A DNA stretch of 64,000 nt from Paenibacillus borealis (GTDB taxonomy: Bacteria > Bacillota > Bacilli > Paenibacillales > Paenibacillaceae), in contig NZ_CP009285.1 of assembly GCF_000758665.1 (NCBI RefSeq), forward strand, positions 6,758,001 to 6,822,000. The letters run 5' to 3'. Shown here piece by piece: positions 12,682-63,426 of the stretch (position 1 is the stretch's first letter; every line of letters begins with the position of its first letter). A program made the position numbers and the translations under genes. The notes beneath the pieces were generated by a model that worked only from the letters and a program-made list of their open reading frames with translations, searched no databases and had not been told where the DNA came from.

Positions 12682-13458
12682 TCATTTTCTGTTCATTGCA
12701 TTATAGGTCAGCTTATCCGCCAGCCGCGGAAACAAGCCGTATAGACGAATCCCGAAGGCTGCCAGTCCGGGAAGATCCACTTCTTCCTTGCCTTTCTCCA
12801 TCAGCTTCACAATCTTCGCAGACACATGCTGCGGAGTCATCATGATCCGGCTCACGCTTTTCTCATAATTGCCTGAAGGATCAGCGGTCTTGAAGAATTC
12901 GGTGGCGATCGGTCCGGGGTTCACGGCCGAGACAATAATCCCGCTCTTGCGGAGCTCCTGGCGGAGCGCATTGGTGAAGCCGAGAACAGCATGCTTGGTA
13001 GCCGTATAGGCAACCGCGCGGGCTGTGCCGATTTTGCCGGCCATAGAAGCAACATTCACGATCTGACCGCTGCCGCGCTCCAGCATATGAGGCACTACCG
13101 CCTTGGTGCAGCGGACAATCCCCATATAGTTCACGTCCATCATAGCATCGAATTCGCCGGGCTCCATCTCCGTAAACGCTGCAAACTTGCCGTAACCGGC
13201 ATTGTTGAGCAGAATATCAATTCTGCCGTACTGGTCAAGAATCTCCCCGAAGGTACGCTCCACTGCCGCCTCATCGGTCACATCACAGACGAACAGTCCA
13301 AAAACGCCCGGTATCCCGGCCGCGGTTTCTTTCAGCTTGTCTCCCGAACGGGCCAGCAGAATGGGAACAGCCCCGCGCTGGCTGAGCATCTGTGCCGTAA
13401 GCGCACCGATTCCGCTCGAAGCTCCTGTAATAACAACAACCTTGCCTTGTAATGCCAT
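12682..13458 (-). CDS. Short-chain dehydrogenase/reductase (SDR)
   Basis: 258 residues, classical SDR. The cofactor motif TGASSGIG is at residues 11-18, LLNNAGYG follows, and the catalytic Ser and YTATK are in VNVASMAGKIGTARAVAYTATKH (split here at about residues 138-160). It uses NAD(P)H on an unknown carbonyl or alcohol. The C-terminal stretch LAAFGIRLYGLFPRLADKL is hydrophobic and may touch the membrane, as in YqjQ-like members. It lies 28 bases behind cheX and probably shares its transcript. The ribosome site GGGAG is 13 bases upstream, which is long. Confidence 0.88.
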   Translation of the reverse strand: MALQGKVVVITGASSGIGALTAQMLSQRGAVPILLARSGDKLKETAAGIPGVFGLFVCDVTDEAAVERTFGEILDQYGRIDILLNNAGYGKFAAFTEMEPGEFDAMMDVNYMGIVRCTKAVVPHMLERGSGQIVNVASMAGKIGTARAVAYTATKHAVLGFTNALRQELRKSGIIVSAVNPGPIATEFFKTADPSGNYEKSVSRIMMTPQHVSAKIVKLMEKGKEEVDLPGLAAFGIRLYGLFPRLADKLTYNAMNRK

Positions 13459-43084: not shown

Positions 43085-43849
43085 TTACACGCCCAGCCAG
43101 CGCTTGAACATATGCTTCGTCGTCTGCTTGTTGATCTCGGCAATCGAGGTGGTCAGCGGAATGCCCTTAGGACAGGCGCGTACACAGTTCTGCGAGTTAC
43201 CGCAGCCGTCGATGCCGCCGTCTTCCATCAGCGCCTCCAGGCGCTCGTCAGAGTTCATCTCGCCTGTAGGGTGGGCGTTGAACAGGCGCACCTGCGAAAT
43301 GGCGGCAGGACCGATGAAATTGGTCTTCTCGTTGACATTCGGGCAAGCCTCCAGGCAGACACCGCAGGTCATGCACTTGGACAGCTCATAAGCCCATTGG
43401 CGCTTCTTCTCCGGCATCCGGGGTCCCGGACCCAGATCATAGGTGCCGTCAATCGGAATCCAGGCCTTAACCCGCTTCAGGGCATTGAACATCCGGCTGC
43501 GGTCTATCACCAGGTCGCGCACGACCGGGAAGGTCTTCATCGGTTCAATGCGTACCGGCTGCTCGAGATTATCGATCAGTGCTGCGCAGGCCTGCCGCGG
43601 CTTGCCGTTAATCACCATGGAGCAGGCGCCGCATACTTCCTCCAGACAGTTGGATTCCCAGCAGACCGGAACCGTATTGTCACCCTTCGCGTTCACCGGA
43701 TTGCGCTGGATTTCCATAAGCGCGCTGATCACATTCATTCCCGGACGGTAGGCAAGCTCGAACTCTTCTGTATACGGGCTCGTTTCCGGTTCATCCTGGC
43801 GGGTAATGATAAATTTCACGTTTTTGGGAGCTGCTGCAGTTTCCGCCAT
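43085..43849 (-). CDS. sdhB: Succinate dehydrogenase iron-sulfur subunit
   Basis: 254 residues. It carries electrons from FAD in SdhA to quinone at the SdhC membrane part (complex II, inner face of the membrane). The plant-type ferredoxin cluster motif CWESNCLEEVCGACSM is at about residues 65-80. The [4Fe-4S] and [3Fe-4S] ligands are CMTCGVCLEACP and CGNSQNCVRACPKGIPL. AGGAGG lies 8 bases before the ATG. It is separated from sdhA by 374 bases, while sdhA and sdhB usually lie almost side by side in Bacillus-type operons. The gap holds the four-dyad element. Confidence 0.95.
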   Translation of the reverse strand: MAETAAAPKNVKFIITRQDEPETSPYTEEFELAYRPGMNVISALMEIQRNPVNAKGDNTVPVCWESNCLEEVCGACSMVINGKPRQACAALIDNLEQPVRIEPMKTFPVVRDLVIDRSRMFNALKRVKAWIPIDGTYDLGPGPRMPEKKRQWAYELSKCMTCGVCLEACPNVNEKTNFIGPAAISQVRLFNAHPTGEMNSDERLEALMEDGGIDGCGNSQNCVRACPKGIPLTTSIAEINKQTTKHMFKRWLGV

Positions 43850-43968
43850 ATCGGTTACCTCCTAAAGGTTTGGATAGCATAGCCTTCTCCGAAACCAGTT
43901 CGCCAAACTCGCTCCGGAAGCACACGCTTTAAGCTTTTAACGTATTGATGATCTTTCGATTCCGGCGC

Positions 43969-44155
43969 TAACTGCACTTTGTACAATTAAAACCAGGGGT
44001 TCCAGCCTAATTTACGATTTAACTGCACTTTATACATTTATATTTCATAAAAAGGCTCATTCCAGCCAGTCCGGAAGATTTTAACTGCACTGAGTACAGT
44101 TATTCGTCTCCCGTGCGGCAGCGGTGCAGGAATAGCTGCATGAAATACAGTTAAA
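43969..44155. repeat. 187-bp element with four dyad units (copy A), inside the sdh operon
   Basis: Four imperfect palindromes of about 23 bases: 43969-43992, 44018-44041, 44079-44104 and 44131-44155. Each has a left half like TTAACTGCA and a right half like TGTACAGTTAA or its variant TACAATTAA. Start-to-start spacing is 49, 61 and 52 bases. The copy at 61330-61516 has the same length and almost the same spacing, and the DNA between units 2 and 3 is about two-thirds identical (18 of 27 bases near its end, by eye). GATTCC lies 5 bases outside each end (43958-43963 and 44161-44166), which could be a target duplication. No ORF. Not a CRISPR: units are dyads, too short and not identical. Confidence 0.75.
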
Positions 44156-59499: not shown

Positions 59500-61206
59500 A
59501 TGAATTCCGTCGGCCAGCCCCTACAGCAGCGGCCCCTCACCACCAAACTTATCCTTGCTGGAATTCTTGGACTTATTGTGTTTGTCATGTTCCAGGTCGC
59601 CCCCCAGCTCTTCTCGGGCTCCGGTGAGGACACAGCAATTATCAGCAAAAGCGAAGTACAAGGCAAAGCCGCCGCATTCGCAGCACAGCAGCTCGGCCAC
59701 GAAGCGGGAGTGAAGGATGAATGGACTATCCTCTATAAGACAGACTCCTCTTTCTACGGCTATATGTCCCGGGAGAAGCTGCTTGAGGATTATACCAAGA
59801 ACAAGCTGGACCAGCGTTATCCGTTTGATGTCTACCATGCAGTGCTCTATACTTCCGGTGAAGCGGATGCCCTGCTCTCCGTGGATGTCAATATGTATAC
59901 CGGTGAAGTAGTCGCTTTTGCCCACGGAGCCGATGCCGATGCCGCAGGACTCGATTACGGGGAAAGGCCGGCCAAGGCTGTAGCGGGCCCTGCCGGCACT
60001 GCACAAACGGCAAGCAGTGAAGCGGGTCTCACCCTTGAGAAGAAAGAAAATCTGGCCCGCCCGTGGCTGCAGTTATGGGGGGCAAACCCGTCGAAGCTCC
60101 AGATCGAGACGGGCAGCGGTGAATACGGGCTTGTCTATACGGAAAGCTCGGTTAAGGTCGGAGAATCGCTGCTGCATTATAACTTTAACTTCTCCGGTGA
60201 CCAGGTCTCCTATTTCCGTGCCGGATTCACTGCACCGGCCTGGCATGACAGCTATGTCGAAGACCAGACTGCTCTTGCCAAGAAGCTCACCTTGTTCGGC
60301 TATGGTCTGCCTACCTTGCTGCTGGGCATTCTGGCGCTGATCTACAGCATTCTGCGCCGGGGTCATACATCTTTCAAGCGCGGGATCTTCCTTAGCTCCG
60401 CCCACTTCCTGATTATGATGGTCAGCAGCTACAATGTGCTTCCCGAAACCGGCGGAGACAGTGCCGAAGCGCGGGTTACCGCTGTAGTGATGTTCATCAT
60501 CTATGTTCTGTACAGTCTGCTAATGTCCTCGCTGCTCTATTTCTCCCTGGTTGGAGGCGACGGCCTGTGGCGCGCAGAAGAGAAGCTTAACCCTTGGCCC
60601 CGTGCCAAAGAGCCCGGTTACGGCCAGTATGTACTGGACAGTATCCGCGCCGGATATGTATGGGCATTCGTCCTGCTCGGCGTGCAGACCCTCATGTTCA
60701 TTATTCTGTCCTTCGCCTTGGATAACTGGTCCACCACGGATGCCAGCCAGTCTCCTTACAATATGAAGTATGCCTGGCTGCTGCCGGTTGTCGCCTGGCT
60801 GGCCGGCCTCTCCGAAGAGGCTGTCTACCGCCTTTTCGGCATCCGGATGCTGAAGAAGCTCGTCAGGAATACCTTTATCGCCTCACTGATCACTACGCTG
60901 ATCTGGGCGCTCGGGCATACGCTCTACCCGATCTACCCGGTCAGCTCACGGCCGATTGAGCTGACCGTAATCGGTTTGCTGTTCAGTTATATTTTCCTGC
61001 GTTACGGCTTCATCGCTGTGATGTTCAGCCACGTGGTATTTGACAGCATCCTGATGGGTGCCACGCTGATCTTCATGCAGGATAAGGTAAATATAGGCGC
61101 GGGTATTGTCACGATCATTCTGCCGTTCATCGTCGGCTATATCGTGTACCGCTTCAACCCTCCGCGCAAGCCGGATCTGGCGGAGCCGGTCCAGCCTCTG
61201 ACTTAG
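59500..61206 (+). CDS. CPBP-family intramembrane protease with large N-terminal domain
   Basis: 568 residues. One membrane helix near 16-36 is followed by an extracytoplasmic domain to about 265 with a repeated PepSY-like feel (KDEWTILYKTDSSFYGYMSR, LLSVDVNMYTGEVVAFAHG). About eight membrane helices follow. The CPBP/Abi signature is present: Glu439-Glu440 in LSEEAVYRLFGI, then WALGHTLYP and MFSHVVFDSILMG with the metal-binding histidines. CPBP proteins are Rce1-like membrane endopeptidases, some acting in bacteriocin self-protection or signalling. The N-terminal domain makes this one much longer than the usual 200-300 residues. Single gene with its own promoter and terminator. Confidence 0.88.
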   Translation: MNSVGQPLQQRPLTTKLILAGILGLIVFVMFQVAPQLFSGSGEDTAIISKSEVQGKAAAFAAQQLGHEAGVKDEWTILYKTDSSFYGYMSREKLLEDYTKNKLDQRYPFDVYHAVLYTSGEADALLSVDVNMYTGEVVAFAHGADADAAGLDYGERPAKAVAGPAGTAQTASSEAGLTLEKKENLARPWLQLWGANPSKLQIETGSGEYGLVYTESSVKVGESLLHYNFNFSGDQVSYFRAGFTAPAWHDSYVEDQTALAKKLTLFGYGLPTLLLGILALIYSILRRGHTSFKRGIFLSSAHFLIMMVSSYNVLPETGGDSAEARVTAVVMFIIYVLYSLLMSSLLYFSLVGGDGLWRAEEKLNPWPRAKEPGYGQYVLDSIRAGYVWAFVLLGVQTLMFIILSFALDNWSTTDASQSPYNMKYAWLLPVVAWLAGLSEEAVYRLFGIRMLKKLVRNTFIASLITTLIWALGHTLYPIYPVSSRPIELTVIGLLFSYIFLRYGFIAVMFSHVVFDSILMGATLIFMQDKVNIGAGIVTIILPFIVGYIVYRFNPPRKPDLAEPVQPLT

Positions 61207-61237
61207 ACGGAACCATATCGATCGGCCATGCCAAAAA

Positions 61238-61302
61238 AAAGAAATCGTTTCTTTTGGTAAAGTGGAGGTACCCCCTCCCTTTTCAAAAGGAGCGATTTCT
61301 TT
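61238..61302. terminator. Long hairpin terminator behind the CPBP gene
   Basis: AAAGAAATCG pairs with CGATTTCTTT; further arms CTTTTGG and CAAAAGG and an inner GGAGG/CCTCC stem extend it. T-rich ends on both strands. Confidence 0.75.
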
Positions 61303-61329
61303 GTATGCGGTATGCGGTATGCGGTTTGC

Positions 61330-61516
61330 TTAATTGCACTTCGTACAACTAAATCGTCTGATTTATAACCGATTCTCCGTTTAGTTGTATTTCGTACAAT
61401 TAAATGGCCATTTGAACCTTCATTTTCACCATTCAGGCAGATTTAGTTGTACAGACTACAGTTATAAGAGGCAAGCCTGCCTTTTCGCAGTTTTTAATTG
61501 CACAGTATACAACTAT
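61330..61516. repeat. 187-bp element with four dyad units (copy B)
   Basis: Units at 61330-61354, 61380-61404, 61441-61466 and 61494-61516, spaced 50, 61 and 53 bases start to start. Half-sites read TTAATTGCA or TTTAGTTGTA on the left and TACAACTAAA or TACAATTAAA on the right. Same length, order and orientation as copy A at 43969-44155. The stretch before unit 3 (CATTTTCACCATTC, then AGGCAGATTT) aligns with copy A (CATTCCAGCCAGTC, then CGGAAGATTT). It lies between converging genes, so it is not a promoter for either. Confidence 0.75.
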
Positions 61517-61600
61517 CAGTGAATGCCCACTTGGAACGGAATACATCAATTGCTGCAGAAGCCCAAAGATAAACCGCTGGGAGCCCGAAACAGGTGTCTC

Positions 61601-61665: not shown

Positions 61666-63426
61666 CTATAACTCTTCCTGCACAGATTGATACCGGCGGC
61701 AGGGAAACCGGAGCCGGATCAGCGTCCCTTCACCAAGCGAGCTGTGAATAGCTACGCCATACTGCCTGCCGTACTGCAGCTGGATCCGCTGGTCAACATT
61801 GCGGATGCCATAGCCGATTCCCTGGCCTGTGGGCTCCAGTATCTGCCCGATCAGCTCTTCCTTCATCCCAAGCCCGTTATCCTCCACTTCAAAGACCATG
61901 TCCGCTCCTTCCGGATAAGCACGGATGATCAGCGAGATCTCATCATCGTACCAGGCATGCTCCAGCGCATTCTCCACAAACGGCTGCAGAATAAATTTCA
62001 CGCTCTCATTCTCCAGCACCTCCGGTGCAATATCGTAGGCCACATGGATACGGTCCACATTCTTAATCCGCTGAATATCCAGATACGACTCGGCAATCTG
62101 CAGTTCCTGCTCCACCGGAATAATCATCTCCCCGCGGTGCAGCGTCAGCCGGTAGAACCTGGCCAGCGAACGGATGACCTCATGCAGCTTATCGATCTCC
62201 CCCAGCTTGGCCATCCGGCTGATCGAAGAGAAGGTGTTATACAGGAAATGCGGGTTCATCTGGGAATGCAGCACCTGCAGCTCAGTCTCTTTCTTCTCCA
62301 GGTTGACAACATAGACCTCGTCGATTAACCGCTGAATCGTTGAAGCCATGTCGTTAAAAGCACTGCCGATCTCCGCAAACTCATCATTGCCCTGCACCGG
62401 CATCCGCTTGTGGAAATCTCCTTCCTTAAAAGACTTCAGGGAGGCAATCAGCTTCTGGAAGCTCCGTGCGAAATACTGGGACATCACCAGACTGATCAGA
62501 AAGAGCAGGATCAGAGTGATTAGGCAGATGCCGATGGTCACATTACGGACCTGCTGTGAATTCTTTTGCAGTGAAGAATACGGAATCCAGGCCACTACGC
62601 TGGCGGGCATATTCGTCACCGGCTGTTTAATTTGCATATAGGAATCCGGCTGCTGAATATAGCCTGAAGCAGCGGAGGGCAGCAAATCCGGTTTAACCTT
62701 GTTGCGGGAGCTTATGAAGAGCAGGCGGTTGTCGTTACCCACGATGAACAGGATACTGTCCTCGCCCAGCTGCCCCGAACCGGCATCAGAGAAGATGTAC
62801 TTCATATTCGCCGTCATCTTGATCAGACCGTTCAGCTGCAGTGTATCGTAGTTGATCAAGGGGCGCAGGTAAGAGATGCTCGCGTTCGCCCTGTCATTGC
62901 CCACCTGCCGCCATTCATAGGAGCCGTAATGCAGTTTCAGCCTTCTATACCAGTCTTCGTTCTCTATACGGTCCATGTGGAATAAGGAATACTTACGGAC
63001 ATCGCCCGCTGCACTCTCATTGTAATAGAATTCTCCGACATTAGGGTTGCTGACATACACGGAAAGCTTGACTTCCGGGTCCGGCAGATTCGCAGCATTC
63101 TCCAGCCTCGGAAGAATATACTGCGACATGATGCTGTATTTCTCCCAGCCGGAATGATAACCTGTCAAATAACGCGAGAGGGTCTGATCTGCGTACAGCT
63201 CGTCGGTGCTGCGGACAACATCCTTCAGCCGGTAATCCACGTTACTGGCAATTTGCCTGACAGCCACCTCCAGATTGCTTCTTGTATGCTCCTCCGTGGA
63301 ACGCACGGAGGAGACATAGGCGTAGCTTCCGATGCCGATAACCGGTGTCAGTACCAGCAGCAGATAGGAAATAAGCAGCTTGTAGCCCAAGGGCAGGTAT
63401 ACGGGTTTCGCACGCTTCATCTGCAT
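61666..63426 (-). CDS. Sensor histidine kinase, LytS/YesM type (third regulator set)
   Basis: 586 residues. Membrane helices at about 16-38 and 300-322 enclose a Cache-like external sensor (SVYVSNPNVGEFYYNESAAG). HAMP follows (FQKLIASLKSFKEGDFHKRM), then HSQMNPHFLYNTFSS with likely phospho-His393, and an ATPase part (QPFVENALEHAWYDDE, VEDNGLGMKEEL, GIGYGIRNVDQR). It pairs with the response regulator at 63433, whose stop is 6 bases upstream. ATG at 63426 used; an in-frame ATG at 63420 has slightly better spacing to AGG. Signal unknown; this class usually serves sugar transporters, which would lie beyond the window. Confidence 0.92.
   Translation of the reverse strand: MQMKRAKPVYLPLGYKLLISYLLLVLTPVIGIGSYAYVSSVRSTEEHTRSNLEVAVRQIASNVDYRLKDVVRSTDELYADQTLSRYLTGYHSGWEKYSIMSQYILPRLENAANLPDPEVKLSVYVSNPNVGEFYYNESAAGDVRKYSLFHMDRIENEDWYRRLKLHYGSYEWRQVGNDRANASISYLRPLINYDTLQLNGLIKMTANMKYIFSDAGSGQLGEDSILFIVGNDNRLLFISSRNKVKPDLLPSAASGYIQQPDSYMQIKQPVTNMPASVVAWIPYSSLQKNSQQVRNVTIGICLITLILLFLISLVMSQYFARSFQKLIASLKSFKEGDFHKRMPVQGNDEFAEIGSAFNDMASTIQRLIDEVYVVNLEKKETELQVLHSQMNPHFLYNTFSSISRMAKLGEIDKLHEVIRSLARFYRLTLHRGEMIIPVEQELQIAESYLDIQRIKNVDRIHVAYDIAPEVLENESVKFILQPFVENALEHAWYDDEISLIIRAYPEGADMVFEVEDNGLGMKEELIGQILEPTGQGIGYGIRNVDQRIQLQYGRQYGVAIHSSLGEGTLIRLRFPCRRYQSVQEEL

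Follow-up and report, generated by a model that had tools for sequence, protein, structure and literature searches.

A dispersed four-dyad repeat of Paenibacillus and its candidate nuclease look like a new sort of repeat-plus-enzyme partnership

For bacterial palindromes that are dispersed and linked with a single resident enzyme, the standing example is the system of repetitive extragenic palindromic sequences and REP-associated tyrosine transposases (REP/RAYT). According to the accessible part of the paper on REP doublets forming hairpins (REPINs), a distinct cluster lies beside each RAYT of P. fluorescens SBW25, and RAYTs occur as single distinctive ones per genome, with a phylogeny largely congruent with that of the species (PMC3116915). 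The REP head GTAG/GTGG is described in the accessible part of another paper (PMC2817692). Here we analyzed a stretch of 64,000 nucleotides from Paenibacillus borealis (NZ_CP009285.1, positions 6,758,001 to 6,822,000; the whole stretch is called the window), in which the initial annotation had noticed an element built of four spaced dyads and present twice. We observed that this element belongs to a dispersed repeat family and that arrays of the same build stand beside genes of one family of nuclease-like proteins. The repeat and the nuclease look like a new sort of repeat-plus-enzyme partnership. No earlier description of such a system was found in the open-access literature, subscription papers being outside the search.

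The two copies, annotated at 43969-44155 and 61330-61516, were confirmed with true bounds within 2 bp. Copy 1 occupies 43967..44155 in the gap between sdhB and sdhA, with dyads at 43967..43991, 44018..44042, 44080..44104 and 44131..44155. Copy 2 occupies 61329..61517, with dyads at 61329..61353, 61380..61404, 61442..61466 and 61493..61517. There are indeed four palindromes per copy, and each is 25 bp long (TTTARYTGYA-N5-TRCARYTAAA), not about 23 bp. The start-to-start spacings, given before as 49/61/52 and 50/61/53, are exactly 51/62/51 in both copies, and so identical rather than merely similar. Frame scores were 72 for copy 1 and 76 for copy 2 out of 80, while the top frame among 20 shuffled windows scored 45. 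The dyad pattern matched 15 times in the window, where 0.35 matches were expected, and 13 of the 15 fell inside the two copies (some matches are both strands of one palindrome). Only 24 of 89 spacer positions are identical between the copies, which is the chance level. Therefore only the dyads and their spacing are common to both, and the partly conserved DNA reported between the units is found within subfamilies only. Since dyads and spacing are both symmetrical, neither copy nor any dyad is given a strand, and the relative orientation of the copies is not assignable.

The two-copy observation is real and larger than first noted, as there are dozens of short intergenic elements of this kind in Paenibacillus genomes. 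The host genome (8.16 Mb, one contig) contained 237 dyads, counted on one strand with at most 3 mismatches, vs 17 for a reversed-pattern control. We recovered at least 48 distinct host elements from the fetched loci, 39 of them spaced exactly 51/62/51. Over all fetched loci there were 120 distinct elements, 96 with exactly this spacing, in a scan that allowed ±1 bp per spacing and left wider variants uncounted. Further copies thus exist in this and other genomes, and their four-unit spacing is not random. Spacer DNA is conserved inside subfamilies, and one host subfamily is expanded. Copy 2 belongs to it, with ungapped identities of 77-86% to 19 other host copies and of 70% to one further copy. 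Eight other host matches to copy 2 fall inside 61303..61557 (query 604-858) with variable ends and conserved flanks, and the widest similarity extends about 25 bp to the left and 40 bp to the right of the core.

Almost all host elements (47/48) lay outside open reading frames (ORFs) of at least 300 nt, 27 between tandem genes, 18 between convergent and 2 between divergent ones; 42/48 remained outside when the cut-off was 240 nt or more. The 46 element-free gaps of at least 100 bp in the same loci were 24 tandem, 6 convergent and 16 divergent (divergent vs convergent, Fisher p = 4.5e-5). The ORF heuristic sometimes errs, and called copy 1 convergent though sdhB and sdhA, which flank it, are both on the minus strand. 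One locus, L283, apparently holds six dyads at 51/62/51/61/51 (two overlapping frames). Carriage on phages or plasmids was considered and rejected: 0 of 50,697 phage records and 1 of 72,556 plasmid records matched, the latter being a 2.7-Mb replicon.

We were led to one protein family by G001, where five elements stand in tandem, and by G016, where two elements surround a single gene. The initial annotation had proposed a search for a co-occurring integrase or DNA-binding protein; a co-occurring candidate was found, and rather than an integrase it is likely a nuclease of DUF559/Vsr-like type that carries a winged helix. The protein has 222 amino acids; its Pfam matches, all of them weak, are to a DUF559/MTES_1575-like (DUF559/Vsr-like) domain and, at the C-terminus, to a winged helix. 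Matches with E of 0.001 or better were obtained in 17 of 52 members for DUF559 (PF04480, best 1.1e-6) and in 16 of 52 for MTES_1575 (PF18741, best 9.3e-6); the first member stayed below the Pfam cut-off (26.1 vs 38.2 bits), as did three weak NCBIfam matches below theirs. The Pfam scans detected no Y1 transposase, giving DUF559/MTES_1575 and winged-helix families instead, and a profile search of solved structures returned winged-helix relatives but no convincing match for the nuclease domain. Residues D69, E83 and H90 were invariant in 18 diverse members, as a D...E-x-(K/D) core with a downstream H. We sorted the proteins into clades A-E, which are identity bands among the matches listed and with which a tree broadly agrees; the third motif residue is Asp in clades A and B and in L146, and Lys in clades C and D. 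Judged from the protein sequence, we infer a PD-(D/E)XK (DUF559/Vsr-type) nuclease by fold and activity.

The family was present in at least 51 of 61 Paenibacillus genomes among the matches listed. Within the order 113 of 149 genomes and 32 of 38 genera had matches, and within the class 56 of 250 genomes, 16 of these in the host's family and 40 outside the order (12 with E < 1e-40, 28 weak). Existing annotations call the members hypothetical protein, DUF559 or endonuclease-domain protein, BlaI/MecI-family regulator, AbiEi-type antitoxin or very-short-patch-repair endonuclease. A role as a defence system was considered and set aside, as PADLOC matches were scattered and weak (best E 1.9e-5). 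The gene is under purifying selection, with a ratio of nonsynonymous to synonymous substitution rates (dN/dS) of 0.03-0.14 in 17 pairs of close relatives covering all five clades. It is syntenic in clades A and C, where common upstream neighbours link 25/26 and 11/11 loci, respectively (chained matches); in clade B the largest neighbour group covered 6/11 loci upstream and 7/11 downstream.

Each nuclease clade has its own half-site and a common step of about 51 bp. We scored arrays beside the gene without a given half-site, by conservation over eight half-sites (maximum 80) and with one shuffle per locus; the highest shuffled score over L061-L141 was 50. In clade A (L063-L092) a downstream array scoring at least 60 was detected in 27 of 30 loci, 18-336 bp past the stop codon, and an upstream array in one (L090); L089 had no downstream array, and its upstream part was masked. 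With the half-site WATNYTGYA, derived from the same loci that it scores, and a free centre, 10 of 11 clade-B loci reached 57-61 of 64 downstream at spacings of 51-52/52-53/51 and 38-43 upstream, and the 11th scored 64 upstream. Clade C (L106-L122) has the half-site ..GGGA at the same spacing as clade A, with scores of at least 60 in 10 of 17 loci, six of them downstream only and one on both sides. Tandem arrays of 51 bp were present in 7/11 clade-D loci, and of 51/52 bp in 7/9 clade-E loci, three of these on both sides. For clades D and E, it may be the arrays themselves that produce the downstream links between neighbourhoods. Four-dyad arrays stood on both sides of the gene in L062, L115 and L273, and tandem arrays in L133, L135 and L144.

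In the search of the order, 13 of 21 scored loci out of 30 reached at least 55 and 8 at least 60 on one side, with shuffles of at most 50; nine loci from already used genomes were left out, 5 of the 21 belong to the same genus, and the side is unsure in L261, L264 and L275, where the assumed place of the gene is shifted by contig ends. In other orders of the class 3 of 4 loci reached at least 58 (shuffles at most 49), the array side being unsure in L335, which lies on a short contig. We also noted an array at 51/72/51 downstream of the gene in L146, its centre one helical turn longer, and in L125 (G001) a TTTA-type four-dyad array (score 67) upstream of a clade-D gene whose downstream side carries a 51-bp tandem array of its own. 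Tandem units of 51/52 bp in up to about 17 copies were seen beside the gene in L123, L124, L125, L127-L129, L132, L133, L135-L139 and L144; the clade-D and clade-E tandem arrays are possible strain-typing loci. In L221 (G000:C1:3544798-3549200) the host's clade-A gene has dyads downstream, at distances of about 0.15 and 1.7 kb.

Counts of the TTTA dyad were bimodal in 61 genomes, and 34 of them exceeded the largest control (29). Dyad-rich were 30 of the 30 genomes with a clade-A protein (at least 70% identity) vs 4 of the 31 without one among the matches listed (Fisher p = 2e-13, a statistic that ignores the kinship of the genomes). The sister half-site TTCT occurred at least 12 times in 29 genomes, all among the 34 dyad-rich ones (controls 0-3). 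Genomes in which the gene-linked array is of TTCT type had a larger share of it (10 vs 17 genomes, one-sided p = 0.003, with overlap); 2 of the 10 were classed by an ambiguous consensus, and 3 of the 30 were left out as they had no clear downstream array. For the clade-C dyad we took counts in 10 selected genomes. There were 81, 79, 48 and 8 in the genomes of the subclade L106/L107/L113/L117 (controls 0-3) and 0-2 in the six others.

We compared the loci of both window copies among relatives. A search of 40 genomes gave 30 sdhB-sdhA loci. In the host and in G009 the gap holds a common element at one and the same position, in G015 a different element lies elsewhere in the gap, and the remaining 27 gaps (8-187 bp long) are without one. 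This pattern suggests gain in two lineages as presence or absence, with no defined insertion. Copy 2 separates the 3' ends of a gene at 59500-61206 on the plus strand, assigned by eye to a CPBP-type membrane protease, and a sensor kinase at 61666-63426 on the minus strand. In G018 both neighbours are kept, and their ends are directly adjacent with no element between; because the gene ends abut, insertion ends cannot be read there. Among 21 further loci of relatives that have the upstream gene, the stretch examined contained neither the kinase nor an element. The closest pair examined, G028/G034 (about 97%), differed by two internal deletions, one insertion and one replacement without clear ends, and had one shared element. 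The deletions within elements are compatible with breakage or with slippage alike. In L317 of G034 (about 13230-13330) we also noted an insert of about 98 bp within a four-dyad element, one end of which we take to be reminiscent of IS200/IS605-type elements.

We propose that the repeat is a duplex nucleoprotein site and that a resident nuclease spreads its clade-specific arrays in trans as non-autonomous elements, which we regard as the probable explanation. The four palindromic sites would lie on one helical face, in pairs 51 bp apart, with about whole helical turns from pair to pair. The winged helix of the resident protein would bind the dyads, each clade reading its own half-site, and the bound sites would assemble on this face into a four-site complex. 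The nuclease would probably nick or cut at or near the complex, and repair could then copy or insert the element elsewhere, so that the dispersed copies would be non-autonomous elements spread in trans and settling in gene gaps away from promoters. Next to the nuclease's own gene lies an array of this kind, in most cases directly 3' of the stop codon. Of the three guesses in the initial annotation, a non-autonomous dispersed element (probably) and a multi-site protein-binding array stand in combination, while a structured RNA does not.

A structured RNA, or a single-strand hairpin element like REPs or the ends of IS200/IS605, would suit the palindromic units and their placement near terminator-like hairpins and 3' ends, but we hold it to be very improbable. 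In 480 dyads the arms vary at position 5 (A/G), position 6 (mostly C/T) and position 9 (C/T), and the proposed check for covariation revealed pairing below that of shuffled arms at each of them (0.654 vs 0.758, sd 0.010, for position 5; 0.531 vs 0.582 for position 6; 0.758 vs 0.794 for position 9), and likewise at positions 1 and 2. The near-invariant positions 3 and 4 paired slightly above shuffles (0.975 vs 0.965 and 0.973 vs 0.959, respectively), which a few TTCT-type dyads would explain. Since the variable arm positions lack base-pair covariation, the dyads look like duplex protein sites rather than hairpins; this, with the absence of any Rfam match in the window at gathering scores, speaks against a structured RNA. 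The spacings also track the helical repeat: when the centre was scanned freely from 45 to 90, 55 of 90 loci reached 60 downstream, with spacings of only 51-53, 60-62 or 72, near five, six and seven helical turns. Bacterial miniature inverted-repeat transposable elements (MITEs) are short, non-coding, dispersed and intergenic, as the four-dyad elements are. If the dispersed units were ordinary MITEs, an unrelated transposase would move them by their terminal inverted repeats, and the dyad core would be a passenger or captured binding site. This would account for a part of the host subfamily, which shares up to about 95 bp to the left and 80 bp to the right of the core with inverted ends. The end consensuses, read from these copies, agree at 21 of 26 letters, and among 48 host copies at least 21/26 was reached at the left end by 10, at the right by 5 and at both by 4. 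However, in five other genomes seven distinct related cores, with 70-81% identity, are without these ends (best 12-16 of 26; shuffled 11-14), the end pattern is not in excess in the host genome (22 matches vs 27 reversed), and no target duplication was seen at the four copies with both ends. We consider such an origin improbable, and we rejected a reading by MITEs alone, as the inverted ends occur on only part of one host subfamily and are missing around related cores elsewhere.

An alternative nearer to our proposal is that the nuclease-like protein is mainly architectural or regulatory and binds the arrays to loop or insulate DNA, the elements being useful to the host and spreading slowly and incidentally by recombination or slippage. 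The sites are helically phased, the gene is under purifying selection, and divergent promoter gaps are avoided (2/47 elements vs 16/46 element-free gaps), all of which would suit it. So would the slow change of dyads: in eight G028/G034 element pairs, two of which overlap, substitutions fell on 2/320 positions of the five best-conserved dyad letters, on 23/708 of the spacers and on 151/3912 of the flanks, and in one G058/G060 pair on 2/40 dyad letters vs 12/89 spacer positions, a comparison in which low dyad change is favoured as the elements were picked by their dyads in one genome. On the other side, the catalytic-type residues D69, E83 and H90 are conserved, the elements of the sdhB-sdhA gap are lineage-specific with two gains, and one subfamily expanded in the host. 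On this evidence an architectural role appears rather unlikely. Several observations weigh against spreading in trans by the nuclease. Linkage and co-occurrence fall short of proving binding, and the genomes are related. Four dyad-rich genomes (G016, G023, G025 and G031) have no clade-A protein among the matches listed, each having a more distant relative, and the host's own clade-A gene (G000:C1:3544798-3545463, L078) is without an intact array. No precise insertion site or target duplication was found in the sdhB-sdhA gap, at copy 2 or in G028/G034, and no insertion in the last comparison was clean. The half-site-free scan gave only 48-54 downstream of clade-B genes, with no array seen, because their centre spacing is 52-53; three clade-C loci have the array upstream only, some of the clade-D and clade-E tandem arrays are without a clear dyad, and these two clades have almost no common upstream neighbours. 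In clade E the third motif residue is Met, and L140/L143 have Gln there; the slight excess of pairing at positions 3 and 4 belongs here as well.

The system resembles REP/RAYT in its way of life and departs from it in enzyme, hairpin, head and two-sidedness. As in the accessible parts of the REP and RAYT papers (PMC2817692, PMC3116915), the palindromes are extragenic, dispersed and of high copy number, a resident gene has the same repeat beside it, and there are several flavours, each with its own gene, whose phylogeny largely follows the species. REP/RAYT is marked by an HUH/Tyr (Y1) transposase, REP doublets, complementary arms, a GTAG/GTGG head and inverted repeats flanking the gene on both sides. 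Here we observed a likely PD-(D/E)XK nuclease with a winged helix, four phased dyads, variable arm positions not kept complementary, TTTARYTGYA half-sites with no conserved head in the host flanks, and an array mostly on one side. TnsA of Tn7 is likewise a PD-(D/E)XK nuclease fused to a winged helix, as far as the accessible part of PMC1189080 goes. The present protein is of the DUF559/Vsr-like type, and its gene in clades A and C lies at a conserved chromosomal place beside the repeat, not in a recognised transposon. The ends of Tn7 are multi-site, a likeness to the four-dyad arrays. The DUF559/MTES_1575 Vsr-like endonucleases share nuclease-domain matches with part of the members, and the accessible part of PMC3710099 mentions no repeat partner for them.

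It is quite possible, though we would not call it probable, that these loci represent a Bacilli-wide replicator class, in which each clade of resident PD-(D/E)XK-winged-helix nucleases has evolved jointly with its helically phased multi-dyad arrays, copying them over the chromosome as dispersed four-dyad elements or amplifying them in place as 51/52-bp tandems; the REP/RAYT way of life would then have arisen twice, from unrelated beginnings. A second case, with another type of enzyme, duplex sites and several enzyme-site pairs in one order, would make a general question testable, namely whether a long-lived partnership of repeat and enzyme is kept by selfish spread or by use to the host. Matched clades with diverged half-sites are also a naturally given data set from which winged-helix specificity could be decoded. 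Within Paenibacillus, a conspicuous group of intergenic repeats is explained by the four-dyad family.

Two further segments of the window recur elsewhere. The sdhB leader holds a second repeated segment (43843-43930), with single scattered matches in several Paenibacillus genomes. To the left of copy 2, at about 61232-61306, there is a terminator-like hairpin that recurs in other genomes.
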